From: Acidobacteriota bacterium
GTDB lineage: Bacteria; Acidobacteriota; Blastocatellia; Chloracidobacteriales; Chloracidobacteriaceae
Direction: 5' to 3'
Length of the DNA: 64,000 bases
Assembly (NCBI GenBank): GCA_016208495.1
Contig: JACQXX010000112.1
Coordinates: 1 to 64,000, forward strand
In this document: positions 34,182-48,464 of the stretch, piece after piece
How the letters are laid out: each line of letters opens with the position of its first letter
How positions within the stretch are numbered: the first letter of the stretch is position 1
Program-made: the position numbers and the translations under genes
Notes under the pieces: generated by a model
Database searches by the model: none
The model's input: only the letters and a program-made list of their open reading frames with translations
What the model was told of the DNA's origin: nothing

Positions 34182-35144
34182 TTACTCGGTTTTCATAGCT
34201 TCAGAAGCTGCTTTCCGCGACCGGAAAAAGCGCCGGATCAAAAACCTGAGGACCAACCCAATCGGCAGGAAAATCAACATGCTGACGGGAATCAGCAAAA
34301 TCACCAGCCGAATGATCCCCAAAGTAATATCTGCTGCCAGATCAATGCTTTCAGCGACCGCTTTTTTGATATTTTGCAGGAACCCAGCCGGATTGGTGGA
34401 AACAATTGGCGAGGGCTCATTGAGCGTGACCGTGAATGTTGACAGGGCTGACTGGTTTTCCAGGTAGCGCCGACGGCCTTCAAGCTGTTCGATTTGGGTT
34501 CGAACTTCCGCAAGCTGGCGCTGGACTTCGAGCGCATCCGACACCGTTCGAGCGGTTTTCATAATTTCCAGAAACTGGGCTTCAAGGGCTTTTTTGCTGC
34601 GGATGCGGGCTTCGAGATCAAGAAATTCTTCGGTGACATCCTGCCCCGTTACTTTTTCCTGGAGCACGCGCTGCCCAACCTGCCGAACTTTTTCGAGCGT
34701 GTCGGCAAACATAGCCGACGGCACCCGGAAAACCATGGTCACGACCTGACTTGATTGGGTTTGGCTGCTGCGAATTTCTCTGGATTCAGAGGTTACGACA
34801 AATCCTTTTTGAACTTCGGCAATCTGGGTCACCCGGCGCATTGCTTCGGACGGAGAATCAACTTCCAGCGACAGTTCGGCATTGCGGATGATCAGGCGTT
34901 GCTGATTTTGAAAGGTTGCTGCCTGCGAATTTTCTGATTGAACGAGCTGTTGGTCTGGGGGAAGGACTTCACCACTGTCAGTGCGAACAGTCAACCCTGG
35001 TTGAGACACTTGTTTACTGACTGGCGAGGGCGAAGCTGGGGCTGTACTGAAATCTTCAGGACCACCACCGCCACTTCTACTCATAGAACATCCAGCCAAT
35101 CCCACCAGACTCAATACAACCAGCACCAGACTGAGTAATCGCAT
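34182..35144 (-). CDS. DUF4349-family lipoprotein
   Basis: The 320-residue protein has a lipobox (VGLAGCS, Cys about 19) and a disordered Ser/Pro-rich region. A DUF4349 body (about 80-300; RLIIRNAELSLEVDSPSEAM, KGFVVTSES, VTMVFRVPSAMF, VTEEFLDLEARI) includes a central coiled coil (LEVQRQLAEVRTQIEQLEGR) and ends with a membrane helix (LVILLIPVSMLIFLPIGLVL) plus basic tail. The ATG at 35144 has AGAGGTGAT ahead. The family is widespread in cell envelopes with unknown function. It is convergent with the CadC-like gene, 44 bp apart. Confidence 0.88.
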   Translation of the reverse strand: MRLLSLVLVVLSLVGLAGCSMSRSGGGGPEDFSTAPASPSPVSKQVSQPGLTVRTDSGEVLPPDQQLVQSENSQAATFQNQQRLIIRNAELSLEVDSPSEAMRRVTQIAEVQKGFVVTSESREIRSSQTQSSQVVTMVFRVPSAMFADTLEKVRQVGQRVLQEKVTGQDVTEEFLDLEARIRSKKALEAQFLEIMKTARTVSDALEVQRQLAEVRTQIEQLEGRRRYLENQSALSTFTVTLNEPSPIVSTNPAGFLQNIKKAVAESIDLAADITLGIIRLVILLIPVSMLIFLPIGLVLRFLIRRFFRSRKAASEAMKTE

Positions 35145-35268
35145 AGATCACCTCTTTCGAAAAATACATGATGGAGCAGTTTTAAAGACTCCTGAAAAAG
35201 AGACTGGTTCCCATGCGGCACCACTCAACCTGGCTGATTGAAAACACCTTGGAACGTCGCAATCAACC

Positions 35269-35670
35269 TCAATACTGGCTGAGGAATAACTTTCCTTCAT
35301 ACTCAATCAATCCGAACCGAACCTTGTTTAACCAGCCATTTCGTCCAAGGACATTCCGGCTAAACCCTTCGTGACTGGCAAAAAACACCATAGAGTCAAA
35401 TTCCAATCCCACAGTTGAGAGTGTCACCATATGCCCATAGACAATGAACGTACCGGTTGCTGTTCCAACCACGACACGTTCACCGCTCTCAATATCAATT
35501 CCAAGCGCCTCTCCATACTGACGTTGAAAAATGCAAAAACTCGCCCCTGTATCCACGTGGGCATCAAATGTAACGGCTAGCTCCAGAAGCCTTAACTCAA
35601 TACTGATGGTGATCCCAACTCGATCTGTATCATAGAGATACAATTGTTCAAAATTGAGTGAATGTGACAT
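35269..35670 (-). CDS. Retropepsin-like (clan AA) aspartic protease, cassette 2
   Basis: The 133-residue paralogue of the protease at 26937-27341 has catalytic HVDTGAS (about 37-43) and VLGRNGWL (about 107-114), ending GLIEYEGKLFLSQY against [14 protein letters not shown]. The ATG at 35668-35670 lies 4 nt after the TAA of the DUF5678-like gene, and that gene's GCAGGATGG end supplies the SD. It has no signal peptide and so is cytoplasmic. Retention of both catalytic motifs in two diverged copies argues for function. Role and substrate are unknown. Confidence 0.8.
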   Translation of the reverse strand: MSHSLNFEQLYLYDTDRVGITISIELRLLELAVTFDAHVDTGASFCIFQRQYGEALGIDIESGERVVVGTATGTFIVYGHMVTLSTVGLEFDSMVFFASHEGFSRNVLGRNGWLNKVRFGLIEYEGKLFLSQY

Positions 35671-35674
35671 CGCG

Positions 35675-36037
35675 TTACCATCCTGCAAAAGGGAATTCTT
35701 CAGATGGTTGAACTTGCATCACGTAAGGTGATGAATACCCCAACCGTCGAGCAGTTTCAAAAACTTCACCGGCATTGAAACTATGGCAAATCAACTGGTC
35801 TCCATCCAGGGCGACCCATTGGCCAACATACTCAGTGCGATGTTGTTCGATCCAGGCTTGTTCTTTTTGTCGCATCAAGTTGGGAAGTTTCCCAACCGGG
35901 TTCGGTGAATCCAAGCCTTCATTTCTCGGTTTCAGTGTTCGGATTTCTTCCAACAACCGAATCGCCAGTACCAATTTTTCATCATTGGTCAATTGGCCAA
36001 CTTGTTCGAGAACTTCAGTTAACTGCTCTGCTGACAT
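35675..36037 (-). CDS. DUF5678-like partner protein, cassette 2
   Basis: This 120-residue protein has a C-terminal half (AWIEQHRTEYVGQWVALDGD, QLICHSFNAGEVFETAR, ending FPFAGW) that parallels the DUF5678-like half of the protein at 27344-27712. Its N-terminal 35 residues (MSAEQLTEVLEQVGQLTNDE, KLVLAIRLLEEI) are a helical pair unlike the Phd-type head of cassette 1. The gene is followed after 4 nt by the retropepsin gene. Exchangeable N-terminal heads on a conserved C-terminal domain, always coupled to the protease, are typical of antitoxin-like or adaptor proteins. Confidence 0.7.
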   Translation of the reverse strand: MSAEQLTEVLEQVGQLTNDEKLVLAIRLLEEIRTLKPRNEGLDSPNPVGKLPNLMRQKEQAWIEQHRTEYVGQWVALDGDQLICHSFNAGEVFETARRLGYSSPYVMQVQPSEEFPFAGW

Positions 36038-36147
36038 AGGGTTATGGATTACCTCTTATTCTGGGCCAGGTTTGCTTACTCTCTTGTGGTTTGTGGTTAC
36101 ACGAGACTTGAGGAAAAAAAGCTACAGAGGAGTTTTGAATCATGCAA

Positions 36148-37257
36148 TCACATCATAGAAAGGTCAATTTCGCCTGACACTGATGGTCCCAAGGGTGTCA
36201 GAACCCCCATCCTTTCCAGGACGCACCGGGCAAAGAATCGGACCCCTGCCGATGGATGACTCAATCGGTTTTGGCATAAAACCTGGGTTTCGTGGCTTTC
36301 GTCGCCACATTCACTCAAGGCATTGAGTGCCCAGCACAGCGTCAGGTCCGGTGCCTGGGCTGGAGGAAATTCGATCAGATCACGCAAGACATCGGCGGCT
36401 GGTTTTCCGATTCTTCGAAGCGCATCAATCGCCATCAACCGAAGTTCCAGATCCACATCGCGTGCCGCCGAACTCAACGCCGCAATCACCGCCGGGTCAC
36501 CTTCCCCAATGCAGCCGAAACAGTCCGCCAGTGCCGTGCGGCCACAGGTGTTTGGATGATGACAGGCGTGGAGCAGAATCGGAATCGCGGCTTTGGCTTC
36601 CGGACCAATCGCCGAAAGTGTCTGAACCACCATCGGTTGCAGTTCGGGGATGTTCATCGCTTCGATGAGTTGGGGAACAACCGCTCCTCCATACGGTACC
36701 AGGGCACAACGTACACGCCAATCTCTGACATACTCATCTTTTCGTGGGCGAACCAGCGAAAATAATGCTCGAACACCTTCGGGCCCGAATCCTGGCAGGT
36801 ATTCGATGATTTTGGTGAGCAAATATCTTTTATTATCAAGATTTTGCCCAATCTTATAAATCATTGGAATTGCCTGCATTGCTGCCGGGCCAAACCGTGC
36901 AAGCGACCCAATCAAACTTATAAGAAACATTGGACGATCTTCAAACTCATCCGAGAAGTCTTTGGAGTTATCAGCAAATGGCCTGAGTTTTTCCAGGAGA
37001 GCAGGAACGACAAGTTCAGCGTTTTCTCCGATTGCCGCCAGAGCTTCGGCAGCTTCACGCTGAATAGAAAGTTCCGGATGCTGAAGCCATTCCAACACTT
37101 GCGGGGTCACTTCCCGAAAATGGGCTCTGACAGTCCGTAGCCGATTTCGGCGGCGGGCCAGTTTTTGAATCAGGCGCAGTTTGTCTCGTGGTTCACCAAG
37201 CTTCCAATATCCGGCAATCAACTCTGGGGCTTCACGCCAATCGTACTCTTTAAACAA
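36148..37257 (-). CDS. HEAT-repeat protein, C-terminal half of a gene split by a MITE
   Basis: 369 residues of HEAT-type helical repeats (WLQHPELSIQREAAEALAAIGE, PEAKAAIPILLHACHHP, LELRLMAIDALRRIGKPA, LSHPSAGVRFFARCVLERMG) form a binding scaffold. The only start near the left end is a TTG inside the target-site duplication (37255-37257) with no SD, which is unusual. If the 120-bp MITE plus one AACAAAAT copy is removed, codons continue in frame from the ORF at 37359-38525 (HHLIL then FKEYDWREAPE). This is therefore probably the 3' part of a disrupted gene of about 757 codons and may not be translated. Confidence 0.75.
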   Translation of the reverse strand: MFKEYDWREAPELIAGYWKLGEPRDKLRLIQKLARRRNRLRTVRAHFREVTPQVLEWLQHPELSIQREAAEALAAIGENAELVVPALLEKLRPFADNSKDFSDEFEDRPMFLISLIGSLARFGPAAMQAIPMIYKIGQNLDNKRYLLTKIIEYLPGFGPEGVRALFSLVRPRKDEYVRDWRVRCALVPYGGAVVPQLIEAMNIPELQPMVVQTLSAIGPEAKAAIPILLHACHHPNTCGRTALADCFGCIGEGDPAVIAALSSAARDVDLELRLMAIDALRRIGKPAADVLRDLIEFPPAQAPDLTLCWALNALSECGDESHETQVLCQNRLSHPSAGVRFFARCVLERMGVLTPLGPSVSGEIDLSMM

Positions 37258-37260
37258 AAT

Positions 37261-37380
37261 GGCTCTTTGGTATTTCCCGTGGAAACGAACGAAATCTCAA
37301 AAACGAATATTGATTCTAAAGAACTTACCGGTTCTGATTTTCATCAAAATGCTAATTTTCACGGCAAATACCAAAGAGCC
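37261..37380. mobile_element. 120-bp MITE with 24-bp inverted ends and 8-bp target duplication
   Basis: The ends GGCTCTTTGGTATTT (37261) and AAATACCAAAGAGCC (ending 37380) are inverted copies; over 24 bases they match at 22. The element is flanked by perfect AACAAAAT duplications (37253-37260 and 37381-37388). It has no coding capacity. An AT-rich 8-bp duplication and GGCTCTT ends resemble those of ISL3-family elements as I recall them, so a full-length ISL3 relative elsewhere in the genome is the likely mobiliser. It interrupts a HEAT-repeat ORF, and its right end supplies the codons WYLP and the stop of the upstream half. Confidence 0.9.
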
Positions 37381-38525
37381 AACAAAATAAGGTGGTGAGC
37401 GTCTCGGTGAAGCAGCGATTGTTTGTCGAGCAGAGCGTCCCAATATTGTTGACGTACCTGCGGATGGCCTCTTTCCCAGAGGAAGACCCCAATTGAATTT
37501 TCCCTCTGTTGTATGTCGCTTGAAAATATCTGAAAAAGAGTGGCAAAGTGTTCTTCAGTCAGTGATCGAATTGAATCCAAACAGTTTACAGCTAACCATT
37601 TTCCTTCTCCTTCCAGAGATAAATTGCAAATCAACCAGTCAACAAGACCTTTATCCTGCTCAAGTAACCAGGCAAAGACAGGGATTAACCTTCTTCGCAG
37701 TAATCGTTTCCCGACAATTCGACAGTTGCTTTCAGTAAGAACCTGGAACAGATCTTGAGCAACCCTGGCTGGAATGAACTCAGCAGGTAAATGATGAAAA
37801 GCTTGAAAATACGTGACTATAGCCAGGGTGCGAACCGTTTCATCAGTATCCCTCAAAAAGCGTTCCAGCGGCAGCGGAGTAAAGTCAATTTCCTCAATCA
37901 AGTACCCAATTGCAATGAGTACAGAAATATGAACGGTGGAATCCGGTTGGTCGAGAGCAGCCAGAAGTCTTTTATATCCTTGAATACCAGATTTACTAAG
38001 CAATTCAGCAATGTGAATTCGTATTCGATGCCTATTAAATTCATCATTCCCCGTTTCATCAGAGCTTTGAATCAACAATCCATAGAGTTGATCCAAATCA
38101 GGCAAAAACGCATCTGGATCGTCAACCAGTGCCCAGTCGAATTCGGTTGGCGTTATCTGGCGAACAATCCCTTCGGCACAAAATCGGATGGTGTAGTCAA
38201 GTGCTTCTCCTTCAGGAGTTTGCACCAGTCGGAACGTAGCATCAAACAGGTCATCTCCGCTTGTTTGGAGCCTGTCATCCATCCAGCACACATACCCAAT
38301 GACCTGGAAGGCATTTGAACCGATTGCCCTGGTAATCAGTTCACCTGTGCCATCCAACCAGCGTTCCGGATAGGCCCAGGTTGGATCAGATTTCAAATGT
38401 TCGAAGATCAAATATCCAATTGCCCGGCTTCCAAATAAAGTCTTGTTGGTGAGGCATTGTTTAACCTCATCAAGGACAGAGTTCTGCCATCGGTGCAACT
38501 GGGATTTATTTGGTAAATCATTCAT
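37359..38525 (-). CDS. HEAT-like repeat protein, N-terminal half, truncated by the MITE
   Basis: 388 residues from the ATG at 38525 (MNDLPNKSQLHRWQNSVLDE). The N-terminal about 180 residues are of unknown type (LFGSRAIGYLIFEHLKSDPT, VIGYVCWMDDRL). HEAT-like helical repeats follow (GIQGYKRLLAALDQPDSTVH, ISVLIAIGYLIEEID, LRDTDETVRTLAIVTYF). The last residues ALWYLP and the TGA at 37359-37361 lie inside the MITE terminal repeat. Without the MITE the frame runs into the ORF at 36148-37257. A longer start at 38636 is possible, but its extra residues look non-native. The native role was probably a protein-interaction scaffold. Confidence 0.7.
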   Translation of the reverse strand: MNDLPNKSQLHRWQNSVLDEVKQCLTNKTLFGSRAIGYLIFEHLKSDPTWAYPERWLDGTGELITRAIGSNAFQVIGYVCWMDDRLQTSGDDLFDATFRLVQTPEGEALDYTIRFCAEGIVRQITPTEFDWALVDDPDAFLPDLDQLYGLLIQSSDETGNDEFNRHRIRIHIAELLSKSGIQGYKRLLAALDQPDSTVHISVLIAIGYLIEEIDFTPLPLERFLRDTDETVRTLAIVTYFQAFHHLPAEFIPARVAQDLFQVLTESNCRIVGKRLLRRRLIPVFAWLLEQDKGLVDWLICNLSLEGEGKWLAVNCLDSIRSLTEEHFATLFQIFSSDIQQRENSIGVFLWERGHPQVRQQYWDALLDKQSLLHRDAHHLILLALWYLP

Positions 38526-38723
38526 CAGCTTTGGTTTACCAGTGTCTATTTTTGAAGACACGGGAAGGCGAGCAACGGGCGGCTCCGCCAGAAAGGAGAG
38601 ATCCGCACCGGGAAGGTTGTTTGTAACAGAACACACGTCATTTGTTTGACCAGCTTTGGTAAAAGCGAGCCGAACAAATCGTCTTTTGGAACAACCCCTT
38701 CCCGACGCGAAATGCCTGGGAAA

Positions 38724-39017
38724 TCAGGCAGTTTTCCGCCAAACCTGTCGTTTGGCTGGGAGTTTGGGCCTGGATTTGGGCTGATTGAGGCGCGCCGCTT
38801 CGGCACAGCCAAAACAGGCTGTGACTTCACGAGCAGGCTCGACACCAACCCCGCCAGGATCGTTCAGAATGCAGAATTTTGGTTTTCCGTTGATGATTTT
38901 GTAGCACTGATGCGCCCGAAAGCGCGGAGGATAGGTGGTTAAACGTGTAGCGACCGCAACTTTGTACGACCGCGTGTGAGGCGGCTGGACCTTCCCACAA
39001 ATTTCACATTTGAACAT
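38724..39017 (-). CDS. Small zinc-ribbon protein
   Basis: 97 residues starting MFKCEICGKVQPPHTRSYKV, with Cys pairs in CEIC and CFGC (about 65-68), plus single Cys in AHQCYK and FCILND. This is consistent with one or two zinc sites. The tail is basic (NQPKSRPKLPAKRQVWRKTA). The ATG at 39017 was chosen because the protein logically begins there; no clear SD is seen and the frame is open to 39152. The function is unknown; small ribbon proteins of this type often bind nucleic acid. Confidence 0.6.
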   Translation of the reverse strand: MFKCEICGKVQPPHTRSYKVAVATRLTTYPPRFRAHQCYKIINGKPKFCILNDPGGVGVEPAREVTACFGCAEAARLNQPKSRPKLPAKRQVWRKTA

Positions 39018-39334
39018 TGGATCAGCCGAAGATCGTGAAGTCTTCCGGGTGGCTGAGGTCCGGAAAGCACGAGAATGCTGGGAAAATTTCCCATGTTTGA
39101 TGTAATTCGCACCATACGCCGTTACTTTCGCCTTGTCAATTGTTTTGTACAAATCAGGGTTCAGGGTTCAGGGTTCTTTCAAGGGATGAGGGATGAAGGA
39201 TGAGGGATGAAAAAAATCCCCTTGTCCCCTTGTCCCCTTGTCCCCTTGTCATCTGGTTCAGGGTTCAGGGTTCAGGGTTTTTGAATTTATGTCCTTTTCG
39301 TCTTTTTCTTGTTGGAACCCGGAACCCGAATTCC
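39018..39334. other. Intergenic region made of short tandem repeats
   Basis: No gene is supported. It contains GGTTCAG/GGGTTCA 7-mers (39160-39175 and 39257-39281), a GGATGAG 7-mer block (39184-39208) and an 8-mer block of CCCCTTGT, four units at about 39221-39249. It lies between the zinc-ribbon gene and the 3' end of the histidine kinase at 39335. Confidence 0.7.
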
Positions 39335-41173
39335 TCAGCCTTCCTCCAGAATCGCCAGCAGTGGTTCAAACTGATAATTGTTGACCAGGTCAGTCAGTTC
39401 CTGGGCCAGTTCAGGATGGGTTGGATTCACCTGCTGGATAATTTCTACGGCGCGAATGATGTCGCCAGCAATCAAAGCCTGGTACAGAGCAGACTTCCAG
39501 TCACTACCCATTGGATCCAATTGGTCGGCCAGACTGGGAGCTTCTGAGACAATGGCTGAGGCTGACGGTTCAAGTAAATGCCGGACTCCAAGGTGAAAGT
39601 GAATTTTTTCAAGCAAAGTCTGCAATTTGTATGGCTTGGTCACGACATCATCACATCCGGCAGCCAGAATTTCGTGTCGGACGTCATCGAGTACATGGGC
39701 AGTTAGTGCAATAATTTTGGTTGAAAACATTCGATTTGCGGCTGCTGGCGGGAAGAGTTCCTCAAGTTGCCGGATTTTCTGGGTTGCTTCATAGCCATCC
39801 ATCACCGGCATTCGCATATTCATCCAGACCAGATGAGGAAACCATTCCTGCCAGTATGAAACCGCTTCGTGACCATTGGTGGCCACCCGGACGTCAAAAC
39901 CGTCTCTGGACAACAACATCCGGAGCAATTCCCGGTCATCTGATTTGTCATCAACGACCAGCAACCGAATCGGCGCTTCACCCTTGATCAACGTGGGGGC
40001 AAGTTTGGCGTGACCGGATTCCTCATCGGCTGATTCTTTGACCAGGAGCGGAATGACAAATCGAAACGTACTCCCCACGCCAACCTGACTGGTAACCTCG
40101 ATGGTTCCGCCAAGGAGTTCAACAAACTTCCTGCAAATCGCCAGCCCAAGCCCGGTGCCTTCAATGACTACATCTCCGGCTTTGCACTGCACAAACGGTT
40201 CGAAAATCTGAGGTAATGCCTCTGGGGTAATGCCGGGACCGGTGTCTTCGACTTCAAATTCAGTCATTCCATCCTGCCAGCCAACCCGTAAGGTCACTTT
40301 TCCGGAAACCGTAAATTTGACGGCATTTCCCAGCAAATTGAGCAAAATCTGCCGCAGTTTTTCGGCATCGCCTTCCACCAGTCGAGGCAGGTTGGATGAG
40401 ATGTCAAAAGTCACCCGCAGGTGTTTGAGTTGGGCGCGGGACCGGGTACGTGTTTCCAGTTCGTGCAAAAACTGGTGCAAATCAAATATCTGAGGTTGAA
40501 GCTGAATCCGACCAGTTTCAATCCGTGCCATATGCAGCACATCGGTAATGATGTCGAGCAGGTGCTCTCCGCTCCGCTGGATGGCCGCCAGGTATTTTTG
40601 CTGGTCAGCGGTCAGTGTCGGAGATTGTTCCAGCAACTGGATAAATCCCAGGATGCCATTGAGCGGTGTGCGGAACTCGTGGGTCATTCCAGCCAGGAAA
40701 ATGCTTTTGGCACGGGCGGCGGCTTCGGCCTGTTCTTTGGCTTCACGCAAGGACTGCTCAAGCTGTTTGCGCTGGCTGATGTCCCGAATTGCTGCCAGTA
40801 CAATTCCGCTTCGTTGGACCGGGTTTAAATTGATGTCAGCCGGAAAGACCGTCCCATCTTTTCGCAGGGCATAAAATTCAAGGTTGGTTTTCCCCATTGG
40901 CCGAAAATGAGGAGATTTTGAATACACACCCCGGTGTGAGTGATGGACATCCCGATATTGCTCTGGCATCAGGATTTCCATGGTTTGCCCAAGCAATTCC
41001 TGGCGGTCATATCCAAACAATTGCTCAGCATGCTGATTCACTGAAACAATTTTTCCATCACGATCCACCGCAATCACGGCATCAGGCGACATCTCAAGCA
41101 GGTAGCCTTTTAACTGCTCATTTTCCTGTCGCAGAATGGTCAATTCATCCAGCAGAACGGACAAGTCATACAT
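39335..41173 (-). CDS. PAS hybrid histidine kinase with inactive-looking receiver
   Basis: The 612-residue soluble kinase has one PAS domain (about 25-145; MSPDAVIAVDRDGKIVSVNQ, ending in a PAC motif), HisKA with His in GMTHEFRTPLNG (about 163), HATPase (GTGLGLAICRKFVELLGG) and a receiver (about 405-540). In the receiver, the aligned phosphoacceptor is Asn in LVWMNMRMPVMDG (codon AAT, near 39823) where family members have Asp. The acidic pair (VVDD) and Lys (VTKPY) remain. A helical C-terminal tail (about 555-612) resembles the extra domain seen in cyanobacterial kinases of this type. I chose ATG 41173; a TTG at 41200 is possible. It is the first of three tandem minus-strand kinases. Confidence 0.88.
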   Translation of the reverse strand: MYDLSVLLDELTILRQENEQLKGYLLEMSPDAVIAVDRDGKIVSVNQHAEQLFGYDRQELLGQTMEILMPEQYRDVHHSHRGVYSKSPHFRPMGKTNLEFYALRKDGTVFPADINLNPVQRSGIVLAAIRDISQRKQLEQSLREAKEQAEAAARAKSIFLAGMTHEFRTPLNGILGFIQLLEQSPTLTADQQKYLAAIQRSGEHLLDIITDVLHMARIETGRIQLQPQIFDLHQFLHELETRTRSRAQLKHLRVTFDISSNLPRLVEGDAEKLRQILLNLLGNAVKFTVSGKVTLRVGWQDGMTEFEVEDTGPGITPEALPQIFEPFVQCKAGDVVIEGTGLGLAICRKFVELLGGTIEVTSQVGVGSTFRFVIPLLVKESADEESGHAKLAPTLIKGEAPIRLLVVDDKSDDRELLRMLLSRDGFDVRVATNGHEAVSYWQEWFPHLVWMNMRMPVMDGYEATQKIRQLEELFPPAAANRMFSTKIIALTAHVLDDVRHEILAAGCDDVVTKPYKLQTLLEKIHFHLGVRHLLEPSASAIVSEAPSLADQLDPMGSDWKSALYQALIAGDIIRAVEIIQQVNPTHPELAQELTDLVNNYQFEPLLAILEEG

Positions 41174-41542
41174 AGCGGCATCACTCAAGTGGAAGGTCAA
41201 CAGGGATGGTGCGGAGTACAGGGTCGGCGTGCAGGTTCAATACCTTATTTTTGCCAAAATTGCCATACGGGACTGGAGGATGGAGAATTGGGTTAGTGGT
41301 CAGTAGTGGTTAGTGGTTAGTGGTTAGTGATGCGAATGAAGAGTTGAAAAAATTGTTTATTGAAAACAAAGGGCTTATCAAAACCTCAAATTTCAGATGG
41401 TGAATCTACTGCCTGTAAGTTGTTAATTTTGAAACCTCAATTCCAACCCTTAATTCACATTAGTGGTTAGTGGTTGGTTCTTGGTGACTGATTCTGCTTC
41501 GAAAGTGTTGATTTCTAACCACTAGCCACCAACCACCAACCA
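41174..41542. other. Intergenic region with GGTTAGT repeats and a repeat-built hairpin
   Basis: No gene is seen. 41293-41330 carries GGTTAGT 7-mers in direct orientation. 41463-41478 (GTGGTTAGTGGTTGGT) pairs perfectly with 41535-41550 (ACCAACCACTAACCAC), enclosing 56 bases. The right arm includes the stop codon (41543-41545) and last two codons of the kinase upstream, so the hairpin forms at the very end of that message. Confidence 0.65.
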
Positions 41543-43891
41543 CTAACCACATTCTTCATTCTGCTTCCCTTCCAGTACTTCCCGTACCTTTTTGGCCAGA
41601 GCGGTTGGAGTGAATGGCTTTTGAAGAAAGGCCACATTGGCGTCAATAATTCCGTGTCTGACAATGGCATCGTCAGTGTAACCACTTATAAACAGTACTT
41701 TTAAGTCGGGAAACTGGAGCCGGAGTTGTTCAGCCAGTTGGCGACCGTTCATTTGCGGCATGACCACGTCAGTAATCAACAAGGCAATCGGTTCAGAGAT
41801 CGTCTTGATCAAACCGAGTGCTTCCTGACCGTTACCGGCTTCCTTCACCTGATACCCAAAGACTTCCAACGATTGTTTGGTGACTTCACGGACAATGGGT
41901 TCGTCTTCCACCAGCAAAATTGATTCGTACCCCGGTCTGAGCAATTCCATCGTATCGGAGCCCGTCTCAGGCTTCCATTTTTCTTCAATGACCGGCAAGT
42001 AAATGTTGAAGCAGGTGCCAAACCCAACTTCGCTGTTGACTTCGATATGACCTTCACTTTGTTTGAGGATGCCAAACACGGTCGCCAGCCCGAGCCCCGT
42101 ACCTTTGCCCTGCGCCTTGGTGGTGAAAAACGGTTCAAAAATGCGGTTTTTGACTTCAGCCGTCATTCCGCACCCGGTATCAGTTAAAGACAGCAGAACA
42201 TACCAGCCGGGCTGGTAGTCAGGATGCAGGCGACCATACTCTTCAGAAAATTCAACCATACTGGTTTCAATGGTCAACCGTCCTCCATCAGGCATGGCAT
42301 CCCGGGCATTGACCGCCAGATTGATGATCACTTGTTCGATTTGACCTGGGTCTACTTTTACTTTCCCCAAGGCCGGCTTTAACACTGAGGTCAGGACAAT
42401 ATCTTCGCCAATCAATCGGCGGAGCATTTTTTCAATATTGGTCACGATTTCGTTGAGATCCAGAATTTTCGGCTCCAGGATCTGCTTCCGGCTAAAGGCC
42501 AGCAATTGCCGGGTCAAGGCGGCGGCTTTTTCTCCAGCTTGCTTGATATCGGCGACATAGGTGCGCTTGGGGTCGGTTCCGGGTAATCGTCCAAGTACCA
42601 GGTCGCTATATCCAATAATAACCATCAATAAATTGTTGAAGTCGTGTGCCACACCACCCGCCAGTTTACCAATTGCTTCCATCTTCTGTGACTGGCGTAA
42701 CTGGTCTTCGAGTTCAATACGCCCGGTAATGTCTGACCAGGAGCCGACAATTTCGGTCGGGGTTCCCTGCTCGTCCCGCAACAACCGTGACTCATCGCGG
42801 ACCCAAAAATAGCTTCCGTCTTTGCGACGAAACCGGTACTCCGAAATCTGATGCCCGGTAGAATGCACATCTTGAAGGTTTTTTTCTGTTCGTTCCTGAT
42901 CTTCCGGGTGAATGTTGCGTTTCCACCAGTCATCTGCCATAGCTTCAGCAAGGGTGTATCCGGTGATGTCAACGACATTTTTACTGACCCAGATGGTACG
43001 TGGGTGTTCGGGTTCTATGGTTAACGCATAAATCACGACTGGATTGCCGGAGACAAAGCGCTGGATTTCTTCCTGAACCCGTTTGCGCTCCGTGATGTCA
43101 CGCACAATCACGGTAAAAACCACCCGCCGGCCAATTTTCACTTGAGAGATAGATGCTTCAATGGGAAACCATTCGCCGGTGGACCGCACTGCCGATGTGA
43201 TATACACCTTTCCCAATCTGAGGTGTTCCGGTCCAGCCGACGCGGCACCAGGCAAAGACGGATCGGTTGTCAAGTGGGCATCATCTGGCACCAGATGGGT
43301 CAACGGTTTCCCAAACAGTTCGGTTGTGGTGTGACCAAACAGGGATTCAGCCGCTCGATTCAACAGCACAATCCCTCGCTGCTGGTCAACGATGATGATT
43401 CCATCTAACGCCGACTCAATGATTCCAGCCAGAAAATTCCGATTTTCATACAACTCGCGCTCTGACAATGTGAGTTGATTCAAATACCGCCGGGTTAATC
43501 CCCCAAGCAACAGGGCGGTCACCGAAACATAAAACCAGCCTTTGTAGGTTTGTAACTGGCTGAGGAGTTCCGGGTCGCGAACCAGCCCGGAAATCAACCG
43601 ATCTGACAACAAGATCCAGGTTGCCCCAATCACCAGATACAGCACGACCAGCTTCAAGACCGGGTAATTGCCAAGTGACTCAAGCGGTGGCCTGGAAACG
43701 ACGGAGTGAAGCTTTTTGAGTGTCCGCGATTCAAATGACTCCTCGGTATCATCCTGATTCCCGATACGCCGCCAAAAGACGAGGGCGCCCGACAGAACCA
43801 GCATCACGGCAATCACACCGCCGCCTACCATCCAAAAGGAATAATTGAGCATATCGAAATACACTTCTGCTGCTTGAATGAGTAATACCAT
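41543..43891 (-). CDS. Membrane PAS-PAS hybrid histidine kinase with receiver
   Basis: The 782-residue protein has an N-terminal membrane helix (about 20-40) and two more (about 78-95, 122-140), a PAS domain (about 155-275; ILIVDQQRG-type core, here [19 protein letters not shown]), and a second PAS with PAC (about 285-400). HisKA with His in GGVAHDFNN (about 414), HATPase ([18 protein letters not shown]) and a receiver with Asp in [13 protein letters not shown] (about 708) and Lys in FLQKPF follow. From the second PAS onward it is closely similar to the C-terminus of the next gene (44142-48116), pointing to tandem duplication. The ATG at 43889-43891 lies inside repeat E8; ATG 43852 ([12 protein letters not shown]) is a natural-looking alternative. 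Neither has an SD. Confidence 0.9.
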
Positions 43892-43988
43892 TTTGGAATG
43901 AAGCGGTCGTATTAGAAAACAGTCAAGTCATTCAATAAAATGAACTTAGTGAACTACTGACTACTGACTACTGACTACAAACTGGTAT
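43885..43988 (-). repeat. Interspersed repeat copy E8, overlapping a kinase start
   Basis: The 104-bp element lies between ATACCATTTTGGAATG (43885) and ACTACAAACTGGTAT (ending 43988). Its right end is a GACTACT 7-mer block (about 43951-43978). It aligns throughout with E7 and with the reverse complement of E1. The first possible ATG of the kinase at 41543-43891 is the ATG within the AAAATGGTAT end. Confidence 0.75.
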
Positions 43989-44141
43989 AAGGGCACACGT
44001 GTGATAAGCATTGAAGGGTCTCAACAGCCAACTTTCTGGGTGAAAACAACACAATCGGGGCAACCAGGGAGTGAGTTCTCGGATACGCGGTCGAGCTTGA
44101 AATGAACCGGGACAACAGGAATGAAAAGTGGTTCCCTGATA

Positions 44142-47100
44142 TTACCTGGTTTCGGCTAACACTTCACGTACCTTTTTTGCCAAGAGTGTTGGCGTAAAGG
44201 GTTTCTGAATAAAGGCAATCTGGTCACCTAAAATGCCATGTTGAGAAATGGTATTGTTTGTGTAGCCACTCATAAATAGCACCTTGAGTTCCGGAAAAAG
44301 CGGTTGCAGGTGTTCAGCAAGCTGGCGGCCATTCATCTCAGGCATGACCACATCGGTAAGGAGCAAGGCCACGGGAGTGGTCAGGGTTTTTATCAGTTCC
44401 AGAGCCTGGGTGCCGCTTTGGGCTTCAATGACGTGATACCCAAATGTTTCCAGTGCCAGGCGGGTGATCGTCCGCACCACGTCTTCATCTTCAACCAGCA
44501 AAATGGTTTCAGCCCCAGACTCAACTGATTCACCATGATCGCCTGATGCCTCAGCAACCCACCCGGCATCAACCGCCGGCAAATAAATTTTAAAGCAGGT
44601 GCCAAATCCCATTTCACTGTACACTTCGATGTGGCCACCGCTTTGTTTCACAATTCCAAACACGGTTGCCAGCCCGAGCCCCGTACCTTTGCCCTGCTCT
44701 TTGGTCGTAAAAAACGGCTCGAAGATATGGGATTTAACCTCAGAGTTCATTCCACATCCCGTATCGGTCATTGAGATCTGGGTGTACCAGCCGGGGTTAT
44801 ATCCGGGTCGTAAGGCACAATATGCCTCGTCAAATTCGAAGGTGTCGGTTTCGATGATCAGTTGACCGCCCTGTGGCATGGCGTCCCGGGCATTAATAGC
44901 CAGATTGATAATCACCTGCTCAAGCTGACCGGGGTCCACTTTGACTTTACTGAGATGTGGCGGCAACAGGGTGGTTAACACAATATCTTCACCGATCAAT
45001 CGCCGCAGCATTTTTTCAATATTACCGACAATGTCATTGACGTCCAGAATTTTTGGCTCCAGGACCTGTTTGCGACTAAACGCCAGCAATTGTCGGGTTA
45101 ATTCAGCCGCCTTTTCACCAGCATGTTTGATTTCAATGAGTGTGTTCCGTTTGGGATCACTGGCTGGAAATCGAGCCAACAGCAAATCACTATAGCCGAT
45201 AATGACCGTGAGCAAATTGTTGAAATCGTGGGCAACACCTCCGGCCAGTTGACCAATCGCTTCCATCTTTTGGGATTGGCGGAATTGCTCTTCCAACCGG
45301 ACGCGCTCGGTGACATCTGACCAGGATCCGACAACTTCGGTTGGTTGATTGCTCGAATCAAACAGAACCCGTTTTTCATCCCGCACCCAAAAATAGGTAC
45401 CATCCCGACGGCAAAACCGATATTCCACAATCAGATGGTTCGTTTTTTTCAGTGTGGATTGGGTCTCGATTACCCGGTCATAGTCTTCCGGGTGAATGTG
45501 TCTGGCCCACCAGCCAGGCTCATTGGTTTCGTCAGCAGAATATCCAGTCAAATCAAAGATATTTTCACTGGTCCAGATTGGTATCCACTCAGTGTCTTCC
45601 AGCTTGAGCGCAAAAATAACCGATGGGCTCCCGGAAACAAACCGCTGAACCTGTTCCTGGGCACGTTTCCGGGCGAGAAACTGTCCAATCTGGCTCCCCA
45701 GTATACCCAATTGGGTCAGTATTGGCCGGTCCAGATCAGAAATCTCCCGGCTCAATACTTCAACCACACCCACGATCTCTCCCTGGTGAATAATTGGAAA
45801 GGCCAGGGCGCTACGGATTCCAGCCTGAAGTGCTGGATGAGCCCATGCAAAATCAGGGTCTTGCCCAATCTCCTCGATTCTGAGTGGGGCACCAGTTGCC
45901 CATACTTTCCCAGGCAGCCCTATATTCAGGCCAAAGGTCAAGGTTTGGGCATGATCAATCAGCCCGGCAAAGGAAGGGTCACTCTTTGACCAGACCTCGA
46001 CACATCGCAGCCGATGGTTCTTTTTATCAACTTCCCAAATGACACCGCCGTCCCAGTTTTCTGAGACACACAGGGTCTGGAGAATTTCGGGTGCGGCTTC
46101 GCTGAGCGTATCAACTTCGGCCAGAATCCGACTGATCATCCCCTGGGCCAGGAGGCGACGTTCGGCCCGTTTCCGCTCAGTAATGTCCTGTATCGTCGCC
46201 ACGCGGTAGCGTAACGTCCCATCTTCATCACGCACCGACACCACATCCAGTTGAGTATCAAAGGTTGATCCGTCTTTGCGACGCATGCGGGCTTCGTATT
46301 GCACCTGCCCAAGTTGATCAGCAACGGCGATACAGTGCTTGACATACTCATGGTCAGCCGGGTCATAGACCTCCAGAATCGGTAAGCCGGCAATCTCCTC
46401 AACAGTTTGCTGATGCATGCGCGCAAAAGCTGGATTACAGGCCAGAATGCGGTTGGTGGTCGGATTTCCGATGGCAATGCCATGCGCACAATTTTCGAAA
46501 GCGTCAGCCCACTGGCGCAAGGCGGCTTCGGTTTGCTTTTGATCGTCAATATCGGTACTGGTGCCAATCCATTTCACAATCTTTCCTGATTGATCGCGGA
46601 ATGGAATGGCCCGTACCTTAAACCAGCGATATACCCCATCCGCCCGGCGGAGCCGATATTGCGCATCAAACAGGTTCCGCCCCTCAGTTTCCGCATGATG
46701 CAAGTGTGGCATGTGAGCCCAATCATCAGGATGAATAAATTTTTCCCAGCTATTGAAAATGTCCTCGGTTTCAGAAAGCCCGGTATATTCGCACCATTGC
46801 GGGCTGATATAGGTACATTTCTGGTTTTCATCAGAGGTCCAGACAATTTGCGGCAGACACTCGATCAGTTGTTTCAAATAGTGCTGGTTTTCGCGCAGGG
46901 TACCCTCGACTTGCTTCCGGCTGGTCGCATCTACCACCATCCCGTGCCACAAAATGCCCCCATCAGGTTCGCTGACTGGGGCCGACCAGGCTTCAAGCCA
47001 AATTTCACCTTTCCCTGGGTGCTGAAATCGGAATTCATGATGCCACAACGTCATCAATCTGGCTGAATCCGCAATGGTTTGGTTGACCTGTTCAATATCA

Positions 47101-48116
47101 TCTGGATGAATTCCCTCAAAAATCAGGGCCGCATCATCCCGGATCTTGTCAGCCATCACCCCAAACACATCCGATACCGCAGCCGAAATAAAAGGCATCG
47201 AATAAAAACCATCGGGGTGGCGGCGGAAAGAAAAGAGCGCCCCGGGAAATACTTCCGTCAGTTTCGATAACTGCTCCTGTAATTTTCCTCTTTCCGCAAT
47301 GGCAATCTCAGATTGTTGCCGGTAACTGATGTCTCGCAAGATGACAGTCAGTTGTTTGCGTCCGTTAACGGTGGTTTGCGAAATGGTTGCTTCGAGTGGA
47401 AACTCTTCCCCGTTGGTCCGCAATCCATAGATAATTCGGGGATTGGACATTTTCCGGAAGCCGACTTCTGACTGTGCAAAAGTATGGACAAGCCGGGCAT
47501 GTAAGGTGCGAAATCGCTCGGGAATAAATGTGTCGAGGGGCTGGCCGAGAGCTTCGGTTGTCGAACAGAGAAACATGGCTTCAGCCGCCCGGTTAAACAT
47601 AATGATTCGATAGGTATCATCAACCGTGATGATGCCATCCATCGCCGTGTCAATAATCCCAGCCAGGATCATTTGTTGTTCCTGAATCTTCTGTTCCTTG
47701 GCGTGGTGCTCTGAGAGATCACGCAAAACTTTGCTAAAACCAAGCACGGTTCCCTTGTCATCAAACATCGGCGTAATCACTCCATTGGCCCAATAGCGTG
47801 TACCGTCTTTTTTGACTCGCCAGCCTTCATCTTCCACTTTGCCCTGGGCAACCGCCTGTTCAAGACGCTGTTGCGGCAGATTTCTCGCCACGTCTTCCGG
47901 AGGATAAAAACAGGAAAAATGGCACCCGATGATTTCATCGGCGCTGTACCCTTTGATTTGTTCAGCACCCGCATTCCAGGTTGACACATAGCCGTTTGGA
48001 TCAATGAGATAAATGGCATAATCCTTGACTGCCTCGACCAGAAGCCGGTACGGATCCACGAATTGACTGATTGGTGTGACAAGAACTTCACGCTTGGGGG
48101 AGTCGTGTCCTTCCAT
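44142..48116 (-). CDS. Giant multi-PAS/GAF hybrid histidine kinase with receiver
   Basis: The 1324-residue cytoplasmic protein has no membrane segment. There are five PAS/PAC units in series (about 15-660; e.g. YAIYLIDPNGYVSTWNAGAE, GIITVDDTYRIIMFNRAAEA, QKCTYISPQWCEYTG, HGIAIGNPTTNRILACNPAF), a GAF domain (about 672-830; SALAFPIIHQGEIVGVVEVL), and a sixth PAS. HisKA with His in GGVAHDFNN (about 960), HATPase, and a receiver with Asp in LLLTDVVMPEMNG (about 1255) follow. I chose ATG 48116 because GGAGG lies five bases ahead; the frame is open to 48140. The last third matches the kinase at 41543-43891. It probably integrates several internal signals (redox, light or small ligands); none can be named from sequence. 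Confidence 0.92.
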   Translation of the reverse strand: MEGHDSPKREVLVTPISQFVDPYRLLVEAVKDYAIYLIDPNGYVSTWNAGAEQIKGYSADEIIGCHFSCFYPPEDVARNLPQQRLEQAVAQGKVEDEGWRVKKDGTRYWANGVITPMFDDKGTVLGFSKVLRDLSEHHAKEQKIQEQQMILAGIIDTAMDGIITVDDTYRIIMFNRAAEAMFLCSTTEALGQPLDTFIPERFRTLHARLVHTFAQSEVGFRKMSNPRIIYGLRTNGEEFPLEATISQTTVNGRKQLTVILRDISYRQQSEIAIAERGKLQEQLSKLTEVFPGALFSFRRHPDGFYSMPFISAAVSDVFGVMADKIRDDAALIFEGIHPDDIEQVNQTIADSARLMTLWHHEFRFQHPGKGEIWLEAWSAPVSEPDGGILWHGMVVDATSRKQVEGTLRENQHYLKQLIECLPQIVWTSDENQKCTYISPQWCEYTGLSETEDIFNSWEKFIHPDDWAHMPHLHHAETEGRNLFDAQYRLRRADGVYRWFKVRAIPFRDQSGKIVKWIGTSTDIDDQKQTEAALRQWADAFENCAHGIAIGNPTTNRILACNPAFARMHQQTVEEIAGLPILEVYDPADHEYVKHCIAVADQLGQVQYEARMRRKDGSTFDTQLDVVSVRDEDGTLRYRVATIQDITERKRAERRLLAQGMISRILAEVDTLSEAAPEILQTLCVSENWDGGVIWEVDKKNHRLRCVEVWSKSDPSFAGLIDHAQTLTFGLNIGLPGKVWATGAPLRIEEIGQDPDFAWAHPALQAGIRSALAFPIIHQGEIVGVVEVLSREISDLDRPILTQLGILGSQIGQFLARKRAQEQVQRFVSGSPSVIFALKLEDTEWIPIWTSENIFDLTGYSADETNEPGWWARHIHPEDYDRVIETQSTLKKTNHLIVEYRFCRRDGTYFWVRDEKRVLFDSSNQPTEVVGSWSDVTERVRLEEQFRQSQKMEAIGQLAGGVAHDFNNLLTVIIGYSDLLLARFPASDPKRNTLIEIKHAGEKAAELTRQLLAFSRKQVLEPKILDVNDIVGNIEKMLRRLIGEDIVLTTLLPPHLSKVKVDPGQLEQVIINLAINARDAMPQGGQLIIETDTFEFDEAYCALRPGYNPGWYTQISMTDTGCGMNSEVKSHIFEPFFTTKEQGKGTGLGLATVFGIVKQSGGHIEVYSEMGFGTCFKIYLPAVDAGWVAEASGDHGESVESGAETILLVEDEDVVRTITRLALETFGYHVIEAQSGTQALELIKTLTTPVALLLTDVVMPEMNGRQLAEHLQPLFPELKVLFMSGYTNNTISQHGILGDQIAFIQKPFTPTLLAKKVREVLAETR

Positions 48117-48464
48117 AAAGACCTCCATAACCCTGGCCAAAAGCGGAAAGAAGGGGGAAGCCGTCGAGTAGTTGAATTCCGGCCTGGGAATTACTTCTTT
48201 GAATATAGGATAATGAAAACAGAAAAACTGTGGCTTTGCCTGAACTGAAGGCAGTCATTAACTTGGCGGCAAGACTGGCAGCACCGGGGTGACGCAATGC
48301 AAATCAATGTGGGCAAAACATTTAGGGATAGATAGTTTGTACTCTGTCTTTTCCCCATGAGCAAGGCGTTATGATGAAGTTTTTCCAGGTTTTGCCAAAA
48401 CTTCCCCATATCAAATCAGCAATGTTTACAGACGGTTTGATATGGGGCACGTCGGAAAAGGGCA
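48117..48464. other. Intergenic region with a terminator-like inverted repeat
   Basis: No gene is seen between the giant kinase start and the adenosine deaminase stop. The only structure found is CCCCATATCAAA (48404-48415) pairing perfectly with TTTGATATGGGG (48436-48447), 17 bp past the adenosine deaminase stop. It has a 20-nt loop and no strong T-run, and could end the add message. Confidence 0.55.

Follow-up and report, generated by a model that had tools for sequence, protein, structure and literature searches.

A 120-bp ISL3-type MITE family in an Acidobacteriota genome, with one copy that most likely splits a HEAT-repeat gene

In the window, i.e. the whole stretch of 64,000 nucleotides of contig JACQXX010000112.1 from an Acidobacteriota bacterium that was analyzed here, two adjacent predicted genes almost certainly represent a single 749-codon HEAT-repeat gene, which was split by the insertion of a 120-bp ISL3-type MITE, presumably mobilised in trans. 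Automatic annotation would not recognise that a small element has broken one gene into these two. The element represents a new ISL3-type MITE family, in which one insertion clearly splits a gene and the empty site can still be read; the insertion itself is an ordinary one, and nothing about it is mechanistically new.

MITEs were taken here to be elements shorter than about 500 bp that have terminal inverted repeats and no transposase gene. The window element is 120 bp long, its inverted ends match perfectly over their first 15 positions, and it contains no ORF of its own of at least 80 aa. Its boundaries, the 24-bp ends with 22 matching positions and the identical octamers on either side (Table 1) were recovered just as the earlier note had described them. 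When the whole window was scanned for 24-bp inverted repeats with at least 20 matches, a span of 70-300 bp and a flanking repeat of at least 7/8 positions, this element was the sole match, and the same scan on five shuffled windows returned none. A search of window positions 35000-40000 against Rfam identified no RNA family.

Table 1. Features of the MITE and of the interrupted gene (window coordinates)
Feature	Position	Strand	Remarks
MITE, ISL3-type, 120 bp	37261-37380	.	Five full copies in the assembly, each between 8-bp repeats
Left terminal inverted repeat	37261-37284	+	22/24 against the right end; outer 21 bp equal to the ends of L046:829-2176
Right terminal inverted repeat	37357-37380	-	22/24 against the left end
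Target-site duplication, left copy AACAAAAT	37253-37260	.	Identical to 37381-37388
Target-site duplication, right copy AACAAAAT	37381-37388	.	Identical to 37253-37260
5' half of the split HEAT-family gene	37359-38525	-	Last codons and stop from the element; homology to the G000:C67 and G001:C39 frames
3' half of the split gene, HEAT repeats	36148-37257	-	TTG within the duplication as the sole start; PF13646 HEAT_2, E 1.9e-16

Both ORFs lie on the minus strand with the limits previously given for them, and their junctions with the element are also as claimed, one half taking its final codons from the element (...HHLIL followed by LALWYLP-stop) and the other having its TTG start inside the duplication. 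Removal of 128 bp (the element and one octamer) fuses the halves in frame as HHLIL-FKEYDWREAPE, which reproduces the proposed fusion; counted from the ATG at 38525, the joined frame has 749 codons rather than the approximately 757 of the earlier note, and apart from the insertion it is free of stops and frameshifts. The 5' half has another possible start, a GTG at 38636, and no family match to it was found in Pfam or NCBIfam. The insertion adds 128 bp, which is not divisible by three, and the element brings stops with it, so that the gene is broken into two halves. The joined protein aligns through the junction to two uninterrupted homologues, namely open frames of 758 aa in the host genome itself (G000:C67; query 39-734, 27% identity) and of 689 aa in a same-family genome (G001:C39; query 51-696, 26% identity), and the gene was therefore single, as had been proposed.

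These alignments also bear on an alternative reading, with two independent genes and an element that only sits in the space separating them, where it might act as a regulatory or terminator hairpin. The predicted hairpin fold of the element is indeed strong (-42.7 kcal/mol, z -7.9 on the + strand) and the 3' half retains an open frame from its TTG start, but homologues from two genomes cross the junction as one frame, the halves join exactly in frame once the element and one duplication are taken out, and copies of the same 120 bp, likewise flanked by 8-bp duplications, are present at loci unrelated to this one. Separate genes are thus largely refuted by the junction-spanning homologues and are considered extremely improbable. 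If the gene was split as preferred here, the insertion may well be recent, which would fit both the intact joined frame and the difference of only 2/120 bp between the window copy and the nearest other copy of the MITE, and it would presumably have inactivated the protein. No close relative carrying the empty site was found, and the identity of the joined protein to its two homologues is low, at about 26-27%. Upstream of the split gene, three large PAS/histidine-kinase-type genes are located in a row on the minus strand (39335-48140), the latter two of which have similar C-terminal halves, as judged by eye from their translations alone.

The earlier note had suggested searching for further copies that share its ends and 8-bp duplications, and such copies do exist: the 8.4-Mb host assembly contains five full-length copies at different places, 92-100% identical to the window copy, as well as several partial or degraded ones. 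The four other full copies, each of 120 bp, share 118, 112, 112 and 111 positions with the window copy. All five are flanked by 8-bp repeats, so that the length of the target duplication is constant; three pairs are perfect (AACAAAAT, AAAAAACT and CAATTTAA) and two have one mismatch (GAGATTTT/GAGGTTTT and AAATTTGC/AATTTTGC). Among the full copies, only that in the window interrupts the middle of a gene, and three of the four others are intergenic. The remaining copy (L004, G000:C161:27357-27476) overlaps the 3' end of a gene for a formylglycine-generating (sulfatase-modifying) enzyme-like protein, the last codons of which come from the MITE (...APWYFPWK-stop). The exact 15-base ends were found only in the host's own genome among 297 genomes of the phylum, and a DNA search with the MITE in 58 genomes (its own and those of relatives) gave matches only in its own genome.

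With regard to the affiliation of the ends, the pattern GGCTCTTTGGTATTTNCCGTG was scanned over 84,980 genomes, and inverted exact matches 1348 bp apart were identified in a gammaproteobacterial MAG (L046:829-2176). The interval encodes an ISL3 transposase frame (PF01610, E 5.9e-25; NF033550, E 9.7e-44), and the outer 21 bp of the MITE are identical to those of this insertion sequence. In this particular copy an in-frame TAA and a subsequent frame change disrupt the transposase frame, and the two flanking octamers differ from each other; it is therefore probably inactive or was not assembled cleanly. Its interior has no similarity to that of the MITE above the level of shuffled sequences, the likeness being confined to the ends, and direct descent of the MITE from it is therefore unsupported. 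Against plasmids, the only DNA match of the L046 element was a short one to an Acaryochloris ISL3 transposase; the closest match carried on a plasmid, with 46% identity, is to an ISL3 transposase of Acaryochloris sp. 'Moss Beach' that lies beside ISAcma10-family copies.

The ISL3-like assignment made earlier is further borne out by elements of this family in class-level relatives of the host, the ends of which are GGCTCTTTAGGAACTCGCGTG (L027), GGGTCTTTGGGAATYGCYGTG (L028) or similar (L029), all three having perfect 8-bp duplications. Acaryochloris plasmids likewise carry an ISAcma10 copy (L072) and a relative of it (L071) with related ends and perfect 8-bp duplications, and the duplications of all five elements equal those of the MITE in length. 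The ends of ISAcma10, L027, L028, L029 and L046, like those of the window element, start with GGNTCTY and are related to about position 21. Related ends together with duplication length therefore indicate the ISL3 family. It is very unlikely that the MITE belongs instead to an IS family other than ISL3 with duplications that are likewise of 8 bp; no ISL3 transposase was found in the host assembly and duplication length alone leaves the family undecided, yet the outer 21 bp are those of an insertion sequence with an ISL3 transposase frame, and 19/24 end positions are shared with the ISL3 element L028 of a class-level relative.

We infer how the ISL3-type MITE moved from its ends, duplications, copies, the matching ISL3 element and the single-gene homologues, all of which were observed. 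The element would consist of two transposase-recognition ends flanking about 70 bp of non-coding DNA, and an ISL3-family DDE transposase supplied in trans would have recognised the GGCTCTTT...CCGTG ends. Insertion of the element at a staggered cut in AT-rich DNA would have produced the 8-bp duplication, and where the target was the HEAT-repeat gene on the minus strand, the 5' half would have been truncated and the 3' half left as an orphan.

The full ISL3 insertion sequence with the same ends that the earlier note had proposed to look for thus exists in the gammaproteobacterial MAG, with its frame broken, and was not found in the host assembly. An ISL3 transposase was not found there by the PF01610 or NF033550 models, both of which matched control genomes, nor with the L046 protein as query, and meaningful matches of the L046 element to the host genome were confined to the terminal 21-23 bp of the small copies. 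An autonomous partner in the same genome, which is usual for a MITE and not part of its definition, was therefore not found in this assembly, a draft of 177 contigs in which a repeat could be missing. The element was presumably moved by an ISL3 transposase that is now missing or unassembled; the enzyme may have been lost, left unassembled or supplied from outside, and the mobilising ISL3 element would carry GGCTCTTTGGTATTT ends. As a tentative and rather doubtful scenario, the MITE family may be young and still mobile in a host without its own ISL3 transposase, being moved by an enzyme that comes and goes on mobile DNA.

The scan over 84,980 genomes also identified a 130-bp element (L051:942-1071) in Yes70-08, a MAG of a different bacterium, which shares the 21-bp end pattern and is flanked by perfect 8-bp duplications CGGGAGCT, with no similarity between its interior and that of the MITE above shuffles. 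In the same rather doubtful scenario, the 21-bp ends common to the gammaproteobacterial insertion sequence and this element would fit an exchange across phyla. No match to the 21-base ends was found in viral contigs. Four other loci with a 21-base match at one end (L047-L050, from Desulfobacterales, Morganella, Competibacteraceae and a second Yes70-08 contig) were rejected as elements, as no second exact end was found in the sequence available around them.

The literature search returned one direct precedent, a 187-nt ISL3-associated MITE of Microcystis aeruginosa, which has 8-nt target duplications and ends that match GGCTCTTCG, is found inside genes in some of its copies, and has been assigned to mobilisation by ISL3 transposases (PMC11448079). 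The window element is a separate and new MITE family that, as far as its anatomy shows, works like the Microcystis one, both being non-coding stem-loop elements with GGCTCTT-type ends, 8-nt duplications and insertions in genes (PMC11448079). The Microcystis element is longer and present in 31-33 identical copies, whereas the window element has 120 bp and few copies, and the inverted ends of the former are imperfect and of 9 nt, shorter than the 24 bp of the latter (PMC11448079). In addition, M. aeruginosa belongs to a different phylum and its genome has resident ISL3 elements with matching ends, unlike the window host, in which none were found (PMC11448079). Compared with ISL3 insertion sequences, which are about 1.35-1.4 kb long and encode a transposase, the window element has 120 bp and no transposase.
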